Shown in pieces: positions 35,451 to 42,949 of a DNA stretch of 64,000 nucleotides. This DNA comes from Bombella pluederhausensis (GTDB taxonomy: Bacteria; Pseudomonadota; Alphaproteobacteria; Acetobacterales; Acetobacteraceae): NCBI RefSeq assembly GCF_026385525.1, contig NZ_JANIDY010000001.1:434001-498000 (forward strand). Reading direction: 5' to 3'. A program made the position numbers and the translations under genes. Each line of letters opens with the position of its first letter. Positions within the stretch are counted from its first letter, which is position 1. The notes below the pieces were generated by a model that saw only the letters and a list, made by a program, of their open reading frames with translations, did not search any database and was not told the origin of the DNA.

Positions 35451-38450
35451 TTACTGGTTCAGAAATCCGTCAATATCCTTCAGCGCCTCGCTTAATGGCA
35501 GCCGTTGGATGGGTACGCCGTTCGGGAAGGCCGAGAGCAGGCGGGAGGGCATACGGCTGTCCAGAATGACGAACACGCCTCGGTCATCAGCACGGCGGAT
35601 GAGGCGCCCGAAGGCCTGTTGCAGGCGCATCCGTGTGATGAGGTCATCATAATCACCCGGTCTGCCACCAGAGAGATGGCGGCGGCGTTCCCGGTGGAGA
35701 ATGTCGGGCCGGGGCCATGGGGTGCGTTCCATCACCACCATGCGGAGGGCATCACCGGGTACATCCACACCATCCCGCATGGCATCTGTTCCCAGCAGGC
35801 AGCTATTGATTTCGGTACGGAAGACATCCACCAGCGTGGCGTTGTTCATGGCATCAATATGCTGGGCATAAAGGGGGATGTTCTTCATTCCCAGTTTCTC
35901 ATGAATGCGGCGGTGAACCTCTTTCAGGCGGTGGATGGCCGTGAACAGCCCCAGGGCGCCGCCATTGGCGACTTCAAACAGGGCCTGAAAAGCCTGTGCC
36001 TGTATTGAAGGCTCTCTGGAAACATCCGTGATGATGTAAGCCCGTGTCTGATGAGCATAATCGAACGGACTCATCAGGGCCGCCCGCATGGGGGGATTGA
36101 GAAAATGCGCTGTGCCTAGTCGCCGCTCGGCTTTTTCCCATCCGGCTTCCCCGTCTTCATCTGGGCTGCGGTCCCGCAATGTGGCGGAAGTGATGAGCAG
36201 CCCGTGCGTGGTGCTTTGCAGGGCACTGGCAAAAGGAATGGTCGGGTCCAGCCAGTGGCGGTTGAGCGCAATATCGTGTCCTTCCTGCAAGAGCCGTGTG
36301 GCAGGCAGAGGTTCACGCTGAATGAAGTCCACATAGGTGGGCAGTCCCCGCTGAGCGATCGGCTGCTCCATGATGGCACGCAACATGCTGATCCAACCTT
36401 GGAGGCGGGAGAGGGCACGGCGATACAGGCTGCGGATTGTACCTTCCAGCCGTTGCTGAAAGCTGGTGTCCGGGTCTTCATCCTGATTTTCAAGGGCTTC
36501 CTGAAGGTGCTTGATGATCCTGTCCAGCGGGGTCACGATGTCCTGAAGGGCCGTCAGAAGCACTTCCGCCTGCTCCCGCAGAGGGCCGGGGATGGGGTGC
36601 AGGTCACATTCCTGCCGTGCGTAATGGCCCTGTTCGCCCCGTGTCTGCATCTGTATCTCAGTGATGCGGGCATCCAGATGCATGTCCAGCATCTGGAGGA
36701 AATCCTCGGCAGGCTGGGCCGGTGGCGTTTCCTCTACGGCGCTGAGGATGACGGTGCCGTCTTCCTTGGGGGTAGGGGCGAGAGGAGTGTCTTCGTCTGA
36801 TGGTTCCGTTTCGGAGGGCTGTGGGGTCAGGCGGGCCTGTCGGGCCTCGTGCAGGCGGCCACTCCAGCCGGGACGTGGAAGTCCCTTCTGCGTGGCATGG
36901 ACGAGGTTCTGAAGCATGTCCTTGAGGGCCGGAAGACGGTCCATCAGGTCTTCCATGCGGCGCATCAGCCCACGGGCACGGGAGCGTCCCCCTTCGGCCC
37001 CTAATATCCAGCGGCGCAGATCGGCCGCTTCCAGACCGGAAAAGACCAGAGAGAAGGCGCTGTCGGCGGCATCGGGGATATGGTGTCCTTCATCAAAGAC
37101 GTAACGGGTGGGGACACCATTTTCATCGGCCAGATTGCCGGGAGCGAGCTCCTGCGGCAGCATGGCGTTCCATGCCGCCTGAGACAGGACAAGCGCATGA
37201 TTGGCAATGACGAACTGGGCATGCTGGGCACGGCGTATCCCATGCTCGATGAAGCAGCTTTGATAATGCGGGCAGGCGGAATGAATGCACTCGCCCCGCC
37301 GGTCGGCAATCATGTTCAGCAGGCCGGGTTGAAAGAGGTCGCCAAACCAGCCGGGAAGGTCCCCGCCCATCAGGTCGCCATCTTCTGTGGTCTCAGCCCA
37401 GAGTGTGAGAAAAACTAATGGAATGAAGCCATGCTGCCCCTGCGGTGGGCGGTTGAGCAGGGTGATGGTGATGTCTTTGAGATTGAGAAGACAGAGATAA
37501 TTTTCCCGCCCCTTGCGGATGACCGCCATCTCATGCCGCTTTGTCGGGTCGGGATAGAGGCGGGTCAGTTCCTGTTCAATCTGCCGTTGCAGATGGCGTG
37601 TATAAGTGCTGACCCACACAGCACTATCATTCTTTTCAGCCCAGAGGCTGGCAGGGGCGATGTACCCCATTGTCTTGCCGGTGCCTGTTCCGGCTTCAGC
37701 CAGCATGATGTTCGGGGTGTTGGCGACATCACGGGGCGTGAAGGCATAGCTGGTCGCCGAGGCAAAATCAGCCTGACCGGGGCGGGGTTCGGCCTGTCGT
37801 CCCAGCAGGGCGGAGAGACGCCTGCGGGCTTCCTGCTGGCTGACGGGATGACTGCCAGCGGGAGGGCGAGGTGCCCGTTCTTCCCATTGCGGCAGACGGT
37901 CCCAAATTTTCAGGACGTCCACTTCTTTGGCTCTGTTGGCGCCTGTGCCGCTTTCAGGAGGAGGCAGGGCGTTTTTCACGATGTCATGCCAGCTCCACCC
38001 GGCCTGCCGTAAGGTTGGCAGCAGAAGATGAAGCGTAGCGTGTTTCTGTGGGGGCTGTTCTGCCAGATCGTTCAGGAGATTCTGGGCGATTTCATACAGG
38101 ACGTCAGCCTGTAAAGGTGTCGTATCATCCGGGTCGATGAGGTTCAGCGCCAGCGCAAGGCCTCGGGCGGTCGGGGGAACAGTGCGGGCTGGGTAAACAA
38201 GAAGGAAAAGTTCCAGCAGGTCCAGCCACGGTGCAGGAGGAGGCTCCGGCGGAAGGTCCAGCAGGCGGAGCGTGGCAGGGCCATGAATGAGCAGCGGCGG
38301 CGGAAGCTGGCGCAGCGTGTTCCGCAGCTCGGAGAGGGGAATGTCCAGTACCTCGCCATCGGGGGTAATGAGGGAGGACAGGCCATGCCGTGCGATCAGG
38401 GCTGGCGCATCAAGGAAGGAACGGAACAGGCTGGACATCCCCTTTCTCAT
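35451..38450 (-). CDS. DinG/XPD-type Fe-S ATP-dependent DNA helicase
   Basis: A 999-residue superfamily 2 helicase. Walker A 'LAEAGTGTGKTMGYIAPASL' is at 252-260 and the DEAH-box is 'YVFDEGHHIPD' (DEGH, 453-456). Four cysteines, Cys320, Cys388, Cys393 and Cys399 ('NYLCLLNLKD', 'GECIHSACPHYQSCFIEHG'), have the layout of the XPD/DinG 4Fe-4S cluster. The C-terminal part has 'LLITSATLRDRSPDEDGE' and 'RMRLQQAFGRLIRRADDRGV'. A 200-residue N-terminal extension precedes the helicase core. An alternative start at residue 5 (38438) is possible. A role in resolving replication or repair structures is inferred from the family. Confidence 0.92.
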   Translation of the reverse strand: MRKGMSSLFRSFLDAPALIARHGLSSLITPDGEVLDIPLSELRNTLRQLPPPLLIHGPATLRLLDLPPEPPPAPWLDLLELFLLVYPARTVPPTARGLALALNLIDPDDTTPLQADVLYEIAQNLLNDLAEQPPQKHATLHLLLPTLRQAGWSWHDIVKNALPPPESGTGANRAKEVDVLKIWDRLPQWEERAPRPPAGSHPVSQQEARRRLSALLGRQAEPRPGQADFASATSYAFTPRDVANTPNIMLAEAGTGTGKTMGYIAPASLWAEKNDSAVWVSTYTRHLQRQIEQELTRLYPDPTKRHEMAVIRKGRENYLCLLNLKDITITLLNRPPQGQHGFIPLVFLTLWAETTEDGDLMGGDLPGWFGDLFQPGLLNMIADRRGECIHSACPHYQSCFIEHGIRRAQHAQFVIANHALVLSQAAWNAMLPQELAPGNLADENGVPTRYVFDEGHHIPDAADSAFSLVFSGLEAADLRRWILGAEGGRSRARGLMRRMEDLMDRLPALKDMLQNLVHATQKGLPRPGWSGRLHEARQARLTPQPSETEPSDEDTPLAPTPKEDGTVILSAVEETPPAQPAEDFLQMLDMHLDARITEIQMQTRGEQGHYARQECDLHPIPGPLREQAEVLLTALQDIVTPLDRIIKHLQEALENQDEDPDTSFQQRLEGTIRSLYRRALSRLQGWISMLRAIMEQPIAQRGLPTYVDFIQREPLPATRLLQEGHDIALNRHWLDPTIPFASALQSTTHGLLITSATLRDRSPDEDGEAGWEKAERRLGTAHFLNPPMRAALMSPFDYAHQTRAYIITDVSREPSIQAQAFQALFEVANGGALGLFTAIHRLKEVHRRIHEKLGMKNIPLYAQHIDAMNNATLVDVFRTEINSCLLGTDAMRDGVDVPGDALRMVVMERTPWPRPDILHRERRRHLSGGRPGDYDDLITRMRLQQAFGRLIRRADDRGVFVILDSRMPSRLLSAFPNGVPIQRLPLSEALKDIDGFLNQ

Positions 38451-38544
38451 ACACAGGAAGTCTTTTTTCTGCGAGGAGAAAGCGGCAGCCCCGACTCCTG
38501 AATACTTGACCAGAGGGGGGAGGGTTCATAATTAACGTAGTCTT

Positions 38545-40173
38545 ATGCAGAAAAAAACGCCTTCTTCTCAGAATGATTCGTCCTTCCCCAAGCTCTGGCC
38601 GTTTGAGGAAGCCCGTAAACTGGCCGCCCGTGTGGCAGACAGGGACCCCAGCAAACCGGTTCTGATGGAGACAGGCTATGGTCCTTCCGGCCTGCCGCAT
38701 ATCGGTACGTTCGGCGAGGTTGCCCGGACAACATGGGTCCGTCAGGCTTTTGAGGAGCTGACAGGCCGCAAGACACGGCTGCTTGCTTTTTCTGATGACA
38801 TGGATGCCCTGCGTAAGGTGCCGGGCAATGTGCCTCAGCAGGAGATGCTGACAGAGCATCTTGGCCTGCCGCTTTCCCGTATTCCTGATCCGTTCGGCAC
38901 GCATGAGAGCTTTGCCGCCCATAACAATGCCCGCTTGCGGCAGTTCCTTGACGCTTTTGGTTTTGACTACGAATTCGCCTCTGCGACCGATTACTACACA
39001 TCCGGCATTTTCGATGCGGCCCTGAAGCGTGTTCTGGAAGAACATGACCGCATCATTGAGGTGATCGCTCCCACGCTGGGCAAAGAGCGCCGTGCAACCT
39101 ATTCCCCCGTTCTGCCGATCCATCCCGAGACGGGCCGTGTCATGCAGGTGCCTATCATCAGCGTGAACCCGGATGCCGGAACGGTCGTCTGGAAGGACGA
39201 GGAGGGCAAGAGCTTCGAGACGTCCGTTTATGGTGGTCGAGCCAAGATGCAGTGGAAGGCCGACTGGGCCATGCGCTGGTATGCTCTGGGCGTTGATTAT
39301 GAGATGTCCGGTAAGGACCTCATCGACAGCGTGAAGCTTTCTTCCAAAATCTGCCGCATCCTCGGCAATGAGCCGCCGCTGAACCTGACCTATGAGCTGT
39401 TCCTTGATGCGAACGGTCAGAAGATCAGCAAGTCCAAGGGGAATGGTCTTTCCGTGGAGGAATGGCTGCGTTACGGCCCTGCGGAAAGTCTGGCGCATTA
39501 CATGTTCCAGCAGCCGACCCGTGCCAAGCGGCTCTATACGGACATGATCCCCAGAGCTGCGGATGAGTATCTTGCCCTCGTGCAGAAGGGTGAGCAGCAG
39601 AGTGCGGAAGAATTCCTCTCCAATCCCGTATGGTTCATTCATGAAGGCAAGTTGCGCCCGCAGGATACCAGTCCGGTTTCCTTCACGGCCCTTCTGAATC
39701 TGGCCAGTGTGGCAAATGCTCGTGAAGTGGAAACACTCTGGAAGTTCCTGCGGCGTTACGATGCCAGCCTGTCCCCGGAGACACATCCCTATGTGGCACG
39801 ACTGGTCCAGCACGCTCTGGATTATTTCAACGAGCGTGTTCGCCCGACCAAGGTGTTCCGTGCCCCAACGGAGACGGAGCGTAAGGGGCTGGAAGACCTT
39901 GCCGCAACATTGAAGACCGTACCGGAGAATGCCAGCCCGGATGATGTGCAGAATGTCGTCTTTGAGGTGGGCAAGCGTTACTTTGCCAAGCCGGAACTGC
40001 GGTCATGGTTCGGGTGCCTGTATGAGGTACTGCTTGGCCAGAAGGAAGGCCCCCGTTTCGGCATTTTTGCGGCCCTGTTCGGGCTGAAGGAGACTGTGGC
40101 CCTGATTGATGAGGCACTGGCTCGCCCTGTTGAGACGACTGACGGGGCTGTGGCAGAGGAGAGCAAGGGCTAA
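38545..40173 (+). CDS. lysS: Lysyl-tRNA synthetase, class I
   Basis: A 542-residue class I LysRS, the archaeal-type enzyme also found in most Alphaproteobacteria. The HIGH-like motif is in 'SGLPHIGTFGEVARTTWVRQ' and the KMSKS-like motif is 'QKISKSKGNGLSVEEWLRYG'. It charges tRNA-Lys. It is followed after 3 bp by an mprF-like gene, whose normal product uses Lys-tRNA as substrate, so the pairing is functionally suggestive. Confidence 0.97.
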   Translation: MQKKTPSSQNDSSFPKLWPFEEARKLAARVADRDPSKPVLMETGYGPSGLPHIGTFGEVARTTWVRQAFEELTGRKTRLLAFSDDMDALRKVPGNVPQQEMLTEHLGLPLSRIPDPFGTHESFAAHNNARLRQFLDAFGFDYEFASATDYYTSGIFDAALKRVLEEHDRIIEVIAPTLGKERRATYSPVLPIHPETGRVMQVPIISVNPDAGTVVWKDEEGKSFETSVYGGRAKMQWKADWAMRWYALGVDYEMSGKDLIDSVKLSSKICRILGNEPPLNLTYELFLDANGQKISKSKGNGLSVEEWLRYGPAESLAHYMFQQPTRAKRLYTDMIPRAADEYLALVQKGEQQSAEEFLSNPVWFIHEGKLRPQDTSPVSFTALLNLASVANAREVETLWKFLRRYDASLSPETHPYVARLVQHALDYFNERVRPTKVFRAPTETERKGLEDLAATLKTVPENASPDDVQNVVFEVGKRYFAKPELRSWFGCLYEVLLGQKEGPRFGIFAALFGLKETVALIDEALARPVETTDGAVAEESKG

Positions 40174-40176
40174 GGC

Positions 40177-42198
40177 ATGGCGGATCACTCCGGTGTTCCG
40201 TCTGGTGAGGCTCAGTCTTCATCATTTACTGGCGCTGGGCGGGTACGGCTATTGCTGACCCGCCTTCCGGCGCTTGTTGGGCTTGTGCTGCTTGTCTGCG
40301 CCATTCTGGTGATCTGGCGGGAGATTCAGCACCTCTCATTACAGCAGGTTATGGGGGGGCTCCATGCGATCCCAAATGCTGCTTTGTGGAAGGGAGCAGG
40401 GGCGACCGTCCTTTCCTACGCCATTTTGTCTTTTTATGACGGGCTGGCTTGCCGCCATGTGCAGGCGGGTGTCTCTTGGGGGCGCTCGGCCTTTGTGGCG
40501 TTCTGTTCCTATGTTCTGTCGCATAATCTGGGGTGCGCTGCCATTTCTGGCCCGGCTGTGCGATACAGGCTGTACCGTAACTGGGGTGTGCCGGGTGTAA
40601 AGATCGCCTCCATCGTGGCGTTCTGTTCCATCACTTACTGGTTGGGTATGCTGGGGTTGGTAGGTTTCATCCTGATGACCCAGCCTGCCATCATCCCTTA
40701 TGTCCGTCAGATGCCACACTGGATGACAGTGGCGAGTGGGGGCGGTTGCTTTGCGTTGCTTCTCGCCTACGTGCTGCTCCCCTGCTGGAAGCAGAACATA
40801 CGCCTGCATAAATGGACGCTGACATTTCCAAGCTGGAAGATCGGGCTGGGGCAGATCATCTCCAGTATGGCGGACATGTCTGCCACGGCCCTGATCGCAT
40901 GGTGCGTGTTGGATACTCTGCCTAATGGCAGCAGCTTAACCTTTGGTGGTTTTCTGGCCATCTATATAGGGGCTTATACGGCAGGACTTCTGGCGAATGT
41001 GCCGGGTGGGCTGGGTGTGTTCGACAGCACCATGCTGCTGGCGCTTTCGCCGTGGTTCTCCGTACCGCATATCATGGCGGGTATTCTGGTGTTCCGGCTG
41101 TTTTATTACATCATTCCTCTGTTGTTGGCAGGGATGATGTTTGCCGGGCATGAGTTACTTGCCCGCTTTGGAAAGACAGAAGACCATAGCCAGAGCCTGC
41201 GCTCCTCTGAGGCCGATTTCTCCACGGTTGTAGCAACGGGTAGTCAGGCCATGCTGGGCGTGGTCATTGTGGTCTATGCCTTGTTGGCCCGGCTGCCTCG
41301 GTTCCATTCCTTTCTGGAAGGGACCATTTTACAGGGGGCGTCTTTTCTTCTGACGCTCATAGGTGTGATGCTGGTCGGCCTGTCATTCGGGCTGTCCCAG
41401 CGGGTGGTACTGGCATGGCGTTTGTCGGTCGGAGCGCTTTGCACCACTCTGGTCATATTGGCGGTGAGGCAGGCGCATTGGGTGGCGTTTGTTGTGGTGC
41501 TGGCAGTTCTGCTGGTGCTTCTGCCTTTCCGGAAAAATTATTACAGGCAGGCCTATTGGCGGGTGGAGCCATTGTCTCCGTTCATTCTGGCTCCGTTCTC
41601 GCTCTGGCTGTGCGGATTGGCGGGTGTCAGCTGGATTGTCCAACAGCGCCGTTTGGGGGATGTCTGGTGGAAGCCTCTGGTTCATGATGCGCATACGGCT
41701 GTTGGCCGTTGGTTTCTGGGTGGAGCGGCTTTGTGCTGTGTTCTGGGGCTGTGGCTGGCGCTACGCAAAACACGGATACATATCATGCCGTGGAATATGG
41801 AAAATCGTGTTCAGTATGCTTGCCTGAAAGAGTCAGCTCTTGCTCTGGATTTGCCATGTGAGCGCCTGTTTGTCCCGGATGGTATGTTACCTGATGCGAC
41901 AGGTAAGGCCGCTTGTGCGGTTATTCGGTTGAAGCCTTTCCTTCTTGCGGAGCCGGTTCTGCTTTGTCTGGGCGGGGCCGTAGGCTCCAGAGGGCGGCGA
42001 GCCGGTGCTGTATGGCGGCTGCGTGATTATGCCGTGCAGGAAGGGTGCCGGCTGGCCGTGCTTCAGTACGGTGCACGACAGGCCGACATCTACGCCTCGT
42101 TCGGGCTCGGCATCTTCTCTTTGGACCATGATGAAGGGTGGTTTCTCATCTGCCGCCCTGAAGATGTTTATGCTCTCAAGGATGTTCTGGGGCTTTAG
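40177..42198 (+). CDS. mprF: MprF-type lysylphosphatidylglycerol flippase, C-terminally truncated
   Basis: A 673-residue membrane protein. The N-terminal flippase domain has many hydrophobic segments and family-typical stretches ('CSYVLSHNLGCAAISGPAVR', 'NVPGGLGVFDSTMLLALSPW'). From about 535 a partial synthase domain begins ('VQYACLKESALALDLPCERL'), reaching 'GRRAGAVWRLRDYAVQEGCR', 'ASFGLGIFSLDHDEGWFLIC', then stops. Full MprF proteins are about 840-870 residues; the missing piece is the second, catalytic GNAT-like half that transfers lysine from Lys-tRNA. No continuation exists in other frames before the convergent next gene. The remaining protein may be a flippase without synthesis, or a pseudogene-like remnant. 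Confidence 0.85.
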   Translation: MADHSGVPSGEAQSSSFTGAGRVRLLLTRLPALVGLVLLVCAILVIWREIQHLSLQQVMGGLHAIPNAALWKGAGATVLSYAILSFYDGLACRHVQAGVSWGRSAFVAFCSYVLSHNLGCAAISGPAVRYRLYRNWGVPGVKIASIVAFCSITYWLGMLGLVGFILMTQPAIIPYVRQMPHWMTVASGGGCFALLLAYVLLPCWKQNIRLHKWTLTFPSWKIGLGQIISSMADMSATALIAWCVLDTLPNGSSLTFGGFLAIYIGAYTAGLLANVPGGLGVFDSTMLLALSPWFSVPHIMAGILVFRLFYYIIPLLLAGMMFAGHELLARFGKTEDHSQSLRSSEADFSTVVATGSQAMLGVVIVVYALLARLPRFHSFLEGTILQGASFLLTLIGVMLVGLSFGLSQRVVLAWRLSVGALCTTLVILAVRQAHWVAFVVVLAVLLVLLPFRKNYYRQAYWRVEPLSPFILAPFSLWLCGLAGVSWIVQQRRLGDVWWKPLVHDAHTAVGRWFLGGAALCCVLGLWLALRKTRIHIMPWNMENRVQYACLKESALALDLPCERLFVPDGMLPDATGKAACAVIRLKPFLLAEPVLLCLGGAVGSRGRRAGAVWRLRDYAVQEGCRLAVLQYGARQADIYASFGLGIFSLDHDEGWFLICRPEDVYALKDVLGL

Positions 42199-42788
42199 AG
42201 CAGGTCGTCTTCATCTTCAGCTAGTGGGGAGAGGAGGCTGGGTATGGCGTATTCCGGGCTGGCTGGGTAGTCCTCAAGCGATCGCCAGCATGTGCTTCCA
42301 TCAGTGTGTAACTGTTCCAGCAGGGTGATGTGATCCACCATCATCTCAGAACTATGAAACAGGTTGTGGCGCTGTATCCATGGGACGAGATCGGTCGGTG
42401 ATGCCGGGGCAAGGCGGGCAATGGTTAGCTCTGGCACAAGAAGGCGGCGTGGTGGTGGGAAACCGGCTTGTCTCAGGGTTGAAGAAAGGCGTTTCTGAAA
42501 GGCAATGATCGGCTGCCGTGGCGTGAGCCCGATAGTCAAACGATCTTCCGTTTCACCCATCTGATGGGCGACCTGATGGAGGGAGAGCGGAAATGGCTCC
42601 CAGCGGAAATGGGAGAGGGCCATGTCCAGCTCCTCCATCTGATGGCGACTGGTGATTTGGCCAAGGTTCTGGAGAGGAATCAGACATTGTTCGGCCTGCA
42701 TCCAGTGAACGTCATCCAGACTGCCCCGCAGCAGGCCCAGTTCGGCCTGAATGGAGGCGGGAAGTGTGAGAGCAAGAGATAGGAACAT
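42195..42788 (-). CDS. ThpR-like 2H phosphoesterase lacking catalytic histidines
   Basis: A 197-residue protein starting MFLSLALTLPASIQAELGLL, matching the opening of bacterial 2'-5' RNA ligase/RNA cyclic phosphodiesterases. The family has two HxTx motifs. Here the first aligned site is 'EQCLIPLQNLG' (family ENLHLTLRFLG) and the second is 'LLVPELTIARL' (family HPHVTLARL), so both histidines are replaced. The family layout is otherwise kept ('PRQPIIAFQKRLSSTLRQAG'). Activity is probably lost; an RNA- or nucleotide-binding role is possible. SD GGGAGG supports the start. It converges on mprF with overlapping stop codons. Confidence 0.7.
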   Translation of the reverse strand: MFLSLALTLPASIQAELGLLRGSLDDVHWMQAEQCLIPLQNLGQITSRHQMEELDMALSHFRWEPFPLSLHQVAHQMGETEDRLTIGLTPRQPIIAFQKRLSSTLRQAGFPPPRRLLVPELTIARLAPASPTDLVPWIQRHNLFHSSEMMVDHITLLEQLHTDGSTCWRSLEDYPASPEYAIPSLLSPLAEDEDDLL

Positions 42789-42949
42789 GATACGGCCTCC
42801 CGGACGTGGGGAGATGAATAAAAAGAAAGTTGGGGAAGTGATGACCCCGTCTTGACTTGGTGGAAAACTACCCCACATTCTACCCGAACGATAGGGGGCG
42901 GGGTGACAGGTACCGTCTCTGCGGTTTTTCTCCAGAATAAGCAGGTATC

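Follow-up and report, generated by a model that had tools for sequence, protein, structure and literature searches.

In the stretch of DNA analysed here (64,000 nucleotides, referred to below as the window), the open frame at 40177-42198 on the forward strand encodes a short, single-GNAT form of MprF, with 673 amino acids followed by a stop codon. We consider it rather likely, on the basis of homology and residue conservation, that this protein is a lipid flippase or scramblase without the aminoacyl-tRNA-binding second GNAT fold (GNAT2), in which the first GNAT fold (GNAT1) serves as a docked, non-catalytic cap. The short MprF is conserved and ordinary within the Acetobacteraceae and occurs family-wide; its gene usually carries the annotation of producing a peptide-resistance lipid, and the protein may easily be misannotated as EC 2.3.2.3. 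To judge from its sequence, it can probably make neither lysyl- nor alanyl-phosphatidylglycerol (PG). In the literature searched, we found no account of a synthase-less MprF from the Acetobacteraceae. On this reading, the two MprF activities would have been parted in nature across a whole bacterial family; the use of an MprF flippase without aminoacyl lipids becomes testable; and both the annotation and the inference made from annotated lysyl-PG synthesis are corrected.

Domain architecture of the short MprF

The protein consists of two flippase subdomains and one GNAT fold, an architecture common to the 44 short forms compared. Subdomain 1 (LPG_synthase_TM, residues 27-325; 40255-41151, on the forward strand like all parts of the gene) is matched by PF03706 over residues 34-317, with 39.4 bits against a cut-off of 33.4. 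It carries the sequence FRLFY (41092-41106), the family's YRxxY lipid-cavity and gate motif, which contains F306, R307 and Y310. Subdomain 2 (residues 345-533; 41209-41775) includes R457, the Interface 1 arginine (R456 in Rhizobium tropici). Then follow the core of GNAT fold 1 of the former synthase (residues 545-651; 41809-42129), with D617 (E611 in R. tropici), and a terminal strand and helix (residues 655-672; 42139-42192), which we propose to be the return segment closing GNAT1. The open frame and the PF03706 match bear out the intact flippase and clean reading frame reported in a preliminary description of this DNA. The nearest named loci, those of Bombella dulcis, B. mellum, B. favorum and B. 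intestini, have 84-87% identity, and the host genome has a size of 2.0 Mb.

The NCBIfam profile bifunc_MprF (NF033480) aligns with residues 30-648 at profile positions 4-624 of 841, and the score of 266.6 bits falls short of the 600 required by the equivalog cut-off; each of the 24 short forms aligned has a match to this profile (best E 1.8e-113). From LPG_synthase_C of Pfam, only profile positions 44-98 of 298 are matched. The score for TIGR00374, the stand-alone flippase-like family, also stays under the cut-off (15.5 of 43.2 bits). In short, the flippase region is of the MprF type and contains the gate arginine and the acidic cavity residues, and the protein does not have a complete tandem-GNAT synthase domain with GNAT2 and the DLMR motif. 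This motif occurs in 17 of 27 long forms and in none of the 44 short forms; by alignment, its D and R correspond to D765 and R768 of Pseudomonas aeruginosa, which we take to be catalytic. A separate LPG_synthase_C domain was sought in the genome with PF09924 down to E 10, and only the short mprF itself was returned; the stand-alone synthase half that the preliminary description had suggested looking for was not found by this search. Because there is no GNAT2, no DLMR motif in any short form and no separate LPG_synthase_C domain, the synthase activity should be lost, which supports the earlier suggestion of synthase loss with the flippase kept.

Probable internal loss of the second GNAT fold

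Compared with full-length MprF, the short form has about 185-190 residues fewer. The GNAT1 that it has kept matches the GNAT1 of solved MprF synthases: the short C-terminal domain aligns by hhalign with columns 26-110 of the 334 columns of the full-length synthase profile (E 8.8e-18), and hmmsearch against MprF synthases solved in the PDB gives E values down to 4e-19. An AlphaFold model of residues 535-673 (pLDDT 71, pTM 0.70) shows a single GNAT-like fold that ends with a strand and a helix; the model of the full-length short MprF is unusable (pLDDT 46). When the 535-673 model was compared by VIA-align, the ten top rows were all MprF synthases (Z 8.2-10.1, 101-112 residues, rmsd 2.8-3.3), and unrelated rows had Z of about 6. 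Foldseek alone gave weak matches for the C-terminal model, with a best E of 2.3e-3.

An instructive parallel is found in the tandem GNATs of FemX and FemA, in which GNAT2 is inserted in GNAT1 and a C-terminal return segment closes GNAT1; in FemX, the N-GNAT comprises residues 1-145 and 317-335, and the aminoacyl-tRNA-binding C-GNAT (residues 146-316) lies between them (PMC4964394). Unlike the short MprF, these proteins keep both GNATs and act on peptidoglycan precursors. The layout explains how an excision can leave a whole fold, and the model and profile tests suggest that GNAT2 was probably excised internally from MprF, with the strand and helix that close GNAT1 left in place.

Several comparisons bear on this point. 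The VIA-align ranges reach residue 857 in R. tropici, 869 in P. aeruginosa and 843 in Bacillus licheniformis, that is, the last helix of those proteins; VIA-align reports the ends of ranges only, and the pairing of tail residues is not given. When a 26-column profile of the tail was compared with the entire full-length synthase profile, the best match anywhere was the terminal RYLA strand; two of 200 column-shuffled tails scored as well as the real tail, only one of them at the RYLA site. The global alignment score is higher for a target with GNAT2 excised (115.9) than for a truncated target (111.7). A plain C-terminal truncation, followed by the gain of a new, unrelated tail, would be a rival on origin only and compatible with the flippase reading. 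It can call on a tail that is short and variable, on ordinary sequence alignment stopping at the GNAT1 core, and on a local profile score by which the truncated target has a slight edge over the excised one (119.2 versus 117.8, about equal). Nevertheless, the model and the VIA-align, tail-profile and global-score tests together favour internal excision, and we regard truncation as unlikely, though still to be reckoned with. As the last 20 or so residues are predicted to equal the extreme C-terminus of the full-length protein, the roughly 185 missing residues look internal. The partial synthase match in the preliminary description therefore stands, but its end point in mid-domain probably does not, given a tail that resembles the full-length C-terminus.

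Distribution and descent

MprF matches were obtained in 231 of 249 Acetobacteraceae genomes, representing 96 of 102 genera, and nearly all of the PF09924 matches listed stop at profile position 93-109 of 298. Short forms measure 647-740 amino acids (37 proteins whose N-terminus is not cut by the end of the locus). The preliminary description had allowed beforehand that its reading would fall if this length were normal for a family, and it is normal: 650-740 amino acids across the Acetobacteraceae. Its assumption that Acetobacter has full-length MprF fared no better, as Acetobacter lovaniensis (L016) has a short form of 688 amino acids whose gene overlaps lysK by 4 bp. Seventeen Acetobacteraceae genomes (L041-L057) hold, in addition to the short form, a full-length MprF matching to profile position 282-298 and only about 24-30% identical to the 673-residue protein; therefore, the short form cannot be regarded simply as a damaged copy of the only MprF present. 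Among 387 genomes drawn from Alphaproteobacteria, only full-length proteins (840-918 amino acids) or flippase-only proteins (about 320-380 amino acids) were found outside the Acetobacteraceae, and none was of the 650-740-residue, single-GNAT form. Plasmid records contained distant matches only, none of which covered 80% of the query.

In a maximum-likelihood tree of 44 rows, one branch with a support of 100 parts the short forms from all full-length MprF, and the full-length MprF of Acetobacteraceae falls with the other full-length forms, apart from the short ones. A careful rerun on shared columns with 43 rows gave the same split at 100/100, present in all bootstrap trees. The separating branch has a length of 1.16-1.35. 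The tree is unrooted and gives one split rather than its direction; since the short form is absent elsewhere, we infer its descent by loss.

In one genus (g68; L122, L123, L138, L139, L145 and L146), the gene beside lysK encodes flippase subdomain 1 only, with about 320 amino acids. The sequence ends were read in two of these genomes, in which FRVMY and GVFD are kept, and the two remaining genomes of g68 match over the same region only. That g68 retains subdomain 1 alone is consistent with the flippase being the selected core.

Purifying selection on the gene

Ten of the 11 genomes of the genus carry the short mprF at about the same length, and the nine other Bombella copies are 71-87% identical and contain no internal stops. 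Pairwise dN/dS within Bombella lies at 0.04-0.14 when the whole gene is taken and at 0.02-0.14 in its GNAT1 part, with dS near saturation in some of the pairs. These values and the conservation across about 100 genera do not agree with the view, one of two offered in the preliminary description, that the gene is decaying. That mprF is decaying or was recently deleted in this strain could be argued from the absence of some 190 residues, the conserved DLMR motif among them, from the further trimming of the gene in g68, and from a clean loss in one Bombella-group genome (G010), where lysK is followed by the LigT-like gene after about 100 bp (L137, 8877-8977). Against this stand the low dN/dS, an identical architecture with intact frames in about 100 genera, and one old split that sets the short forms apart from full-length MprF. 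Decay or recent deletion, to which we assign next to no probability, is ruled out by purifying selection together with family-wide conservation.

The downstream side of the gene gives a similar picture. The opposing LigT-like gene (42195-42878, reverse strand) has a stop codon that overlaps that of the short mprF, as had been described. The overlap is real, but it does not mark the end point of a deletion, as had been proposed: in congeners the MprF C-terminus is the same and the distance to LigT differs, and in other genera different genes lie downstream. The overlap is local to this species and no deletion scar.

Two minor observations concern individual copies. In the draft genomes G016, G020 and G127, the short mprF match contains one in-frame stop each, which reflects either a pseudogene or overrun of the match. 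In B. mellum (L013:7044-7079), the short MprF is extended at its C-terminus by a stretch that ends in a run of eight serines and is not seen in its congeners.

Retained gate and docking residues

In R. tropici MprF, D234, Y303, R304 and Y307 line the lysyl-PG site in the cytoplasmic cavity, R304 and E280 form the gate, and R456 and E611 take part in the contacts by which GNAT1 is docked on the flippase (PMC8131360). The equivalents in the 673-residue protein, mapped through Rhizobium etli MprF, are D233, F306, R307, Y310, D283, R457 and D617. All 44 short forms have F306, R307, Y310, P276, R457 and D617, together with an acidic residue at both 233 and 283; position 306 is Y in 24 of the 27 long forms. 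The conserved gate and docking residues argue for a functional flippase to which GNAT1 remains docked. The changes specific to the subfamily (F306, D283, D617 and H116) argue for some change in the cavity, and the cavity substitutions Y303 to F, E280 to D and N117 to H could mean altered transport.

Proposed function and cargo

Taken together, one internal excision would have removed GNAT2 and left GNAT fold 1 complete. Homology and residue conservation suggest that the part with 14 transmembrane segments still moves lipids between leaflets, and GNAT1 may be held under the flippase by the conserved R457-D617 pair, where it would act as a non-catalytic cap or a regulator of the cytoplasmic cavity. 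The MprF flippase is reported to be a promiscuous scramblase of broad specificity, and the P. aeruginosa protein needs no energy source to translocate many lipids (PMC11980842); an MprF without synthase could therefore act in lipid translocation.

The acidic residue kept at position 233 (D or E), which in full-length MprF binds the amine of the lysyl group, hints weakly at an amine-bearing cargo such as ornithine lipid or phosphatidylethanolamine (PE), and ornithine lipid may be suggested with low confidence. An OlsB-type ornithine-lipid enzyme is encoded in this genome. As OlsB-type genes are near-universal, being found in 237 of 249 Acetobacteraceae genomes, including genera without short MprF, their co-occurrence lends no support to an ornithine-lipid cargo. 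No match over the cut-off to the lysyl-PG hydrolase partner AcvB/VirJ was obtained in 11 Bombella genomes. A more specific proposal is that the short MprF is a dedicated translocator of a native, non-lysyl cargo from the envelope of acetic acid bacteria (e.g., ornithine lipid), which arose by a single excision of GNAT2, is regulated by docked GNAT1 and is co-expressed with lysK, and that all EC 2.3.2.3 annotations of it in Acetobacteraceae are wrong; in its entirety we hold this proposal to be doubtful.

The synthase-less reading touches on published work. In Drosophila colonized by Acetobacter fabarum, one of two mprF transposon insertions altered persistence, which the authors read as loss of lysyl-PG translocation (PMC10269862). 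A. lovaniensis encodes a form of MprF that should be unable to make lysyl-PG, and if the mprF of A. fabarum is likewise short, the effect on persistence is unlikely to act via lysyl-PG synthesis.

Comparison with known systems

The closest known relatives are the bifunctional MprF/LpiA proteins (NF033480; R. tropici 6LVF and 7DUW; P. aeruginosa 9GOE), with which the short form shares the 14-segment flippase, the YRxxY-type arginine, the acidic cavity residues, the PGG loop, the Interface 1 arginine and GNAT fold 1. It differs from them in having neither GNAT fold 2 nor DLMR and about 190 residues fewer, in F for Y303, D for E280 and D for E611, and in adjoining lysK. Stand-alone LPG_synthase_TM proteins (TIGR00374, 320-380 amino acids) likewise have flippase subdomain 1 and no synthase, and the g68 protein is now like them, whereas the 673-residue protein, unlike this single-subdomain type of about 320 amino acids, retains subdomain 2 and a GNAT1. 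Actinobacterial LysX, an MprF-type synthase fused to class II lysyl-tRNA synthetase (LysRS) (PMC10580965), offers another case of an MprF-like protein physically linked to such an enzyme; there, the GNAT synthase is complete and the class II enzyme is fused, whereas here a separate class I LysRS is found and no synthase. LysX2 of Mycobacterium tuberculosis (PMC8974105) is also a non-standard MprF member, but it has an extracytoplasmic synthase-like domain, whereas that of the short form is presumably cytoplasmic and half of it is gone.

Linkage to lysK and neighbouring genes

Upstream of the short mprF lies lysK (38545-40173, forward strand), which encodes a class I lysyl-tRNA synthetase of 542 amino acids (PF01921, E 3.8e-127; NF001968, 812.7 bits with a cut-off of 648) and is the first of an operon-like pair of genes. 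The 3-bp gap reported previously is correct, but the upstream gene is class I lysK and not lysS. In every short-form locus with enough flank, lysK is directly upstream, with a spacing that in most loci ranges from overlaps of 4-29 bp up to about 50 bp; therefore, the two genes are probably co-transcribed. Among the examined loci from other families, lysK was never found beside full-length MprF. A divergent helicase gene, which flanks lysK on its far side, is likewise kept in most loci, so the constancy around lysK may partly reflect a static neighbourhood. If Lys-tRNA is not used, the constant linkage would be unexplained, which counts against the flippase reading, though the neighbourhood may simply be static. 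Single-copy in nearly all cases, lysK is found in 236 of the 249 genomes; it is still present in g53 and g96, two genera in whose sampled genomes short MprF is absent. A dependence of the short MprF on lysK was rejected, as lysK is also present in genera without it.

Two other functions have been weighed in the light of this linkage. First, GNAT1 might pair in trans with another transferase, such as a GNAT or FemX-like protein encoded separately and perhaps supplied by the adjacent LysRS, and so rebuild an aminoacyl- or acyl-lipid synthase. GNAT1 is indeed conserved and under purifying selection, lysK adjoins every short-form locus examined, unlike full-length MprF of other families, and the genome encodes an OlsB-type GNAT. 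However, even a search down to E 10 brought up no second LPG_synthase_C domain in the genome, genera that lack short MprF still have lysK and OlsB, and docking alone can account for the conservation of GNAT1; we consider such a synthase improbable. Second, the protein might no longer transport lipid and instead serve as a scaffold in the membrane or regulate LysRS, as its constant place after lysK and the stop/start overlap in several genera could suggest. This is slightly more improbable still: the cavity and gate residues are conserved, lysK persists in genera without the short MprF, and g68 keeps flippase subdomain 1 only, the opposite of what a GNAT1 scaffold predicts. A lipid flippase with docked GNAT1 remains the preferred reading.

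A few minor observations were made around these genes. No Rfam family matched the window at gathering thresholds. The LigT/2'-5' RNA ligase-like protein scores just under the curated cut-offs (TIGR02258, 59.7 of 65.7; PF13563, 26.3 of 27) and diverges fast among congeners, with 52-71% identity versus 95-98% for lysK. Finally, a 467-codon open frame lies antisense to lysK (38410-39813, reverse strand) and has antisense counterparts in relatives with 35-48% identity; it is most likely a shadow of the conservation of lysK.
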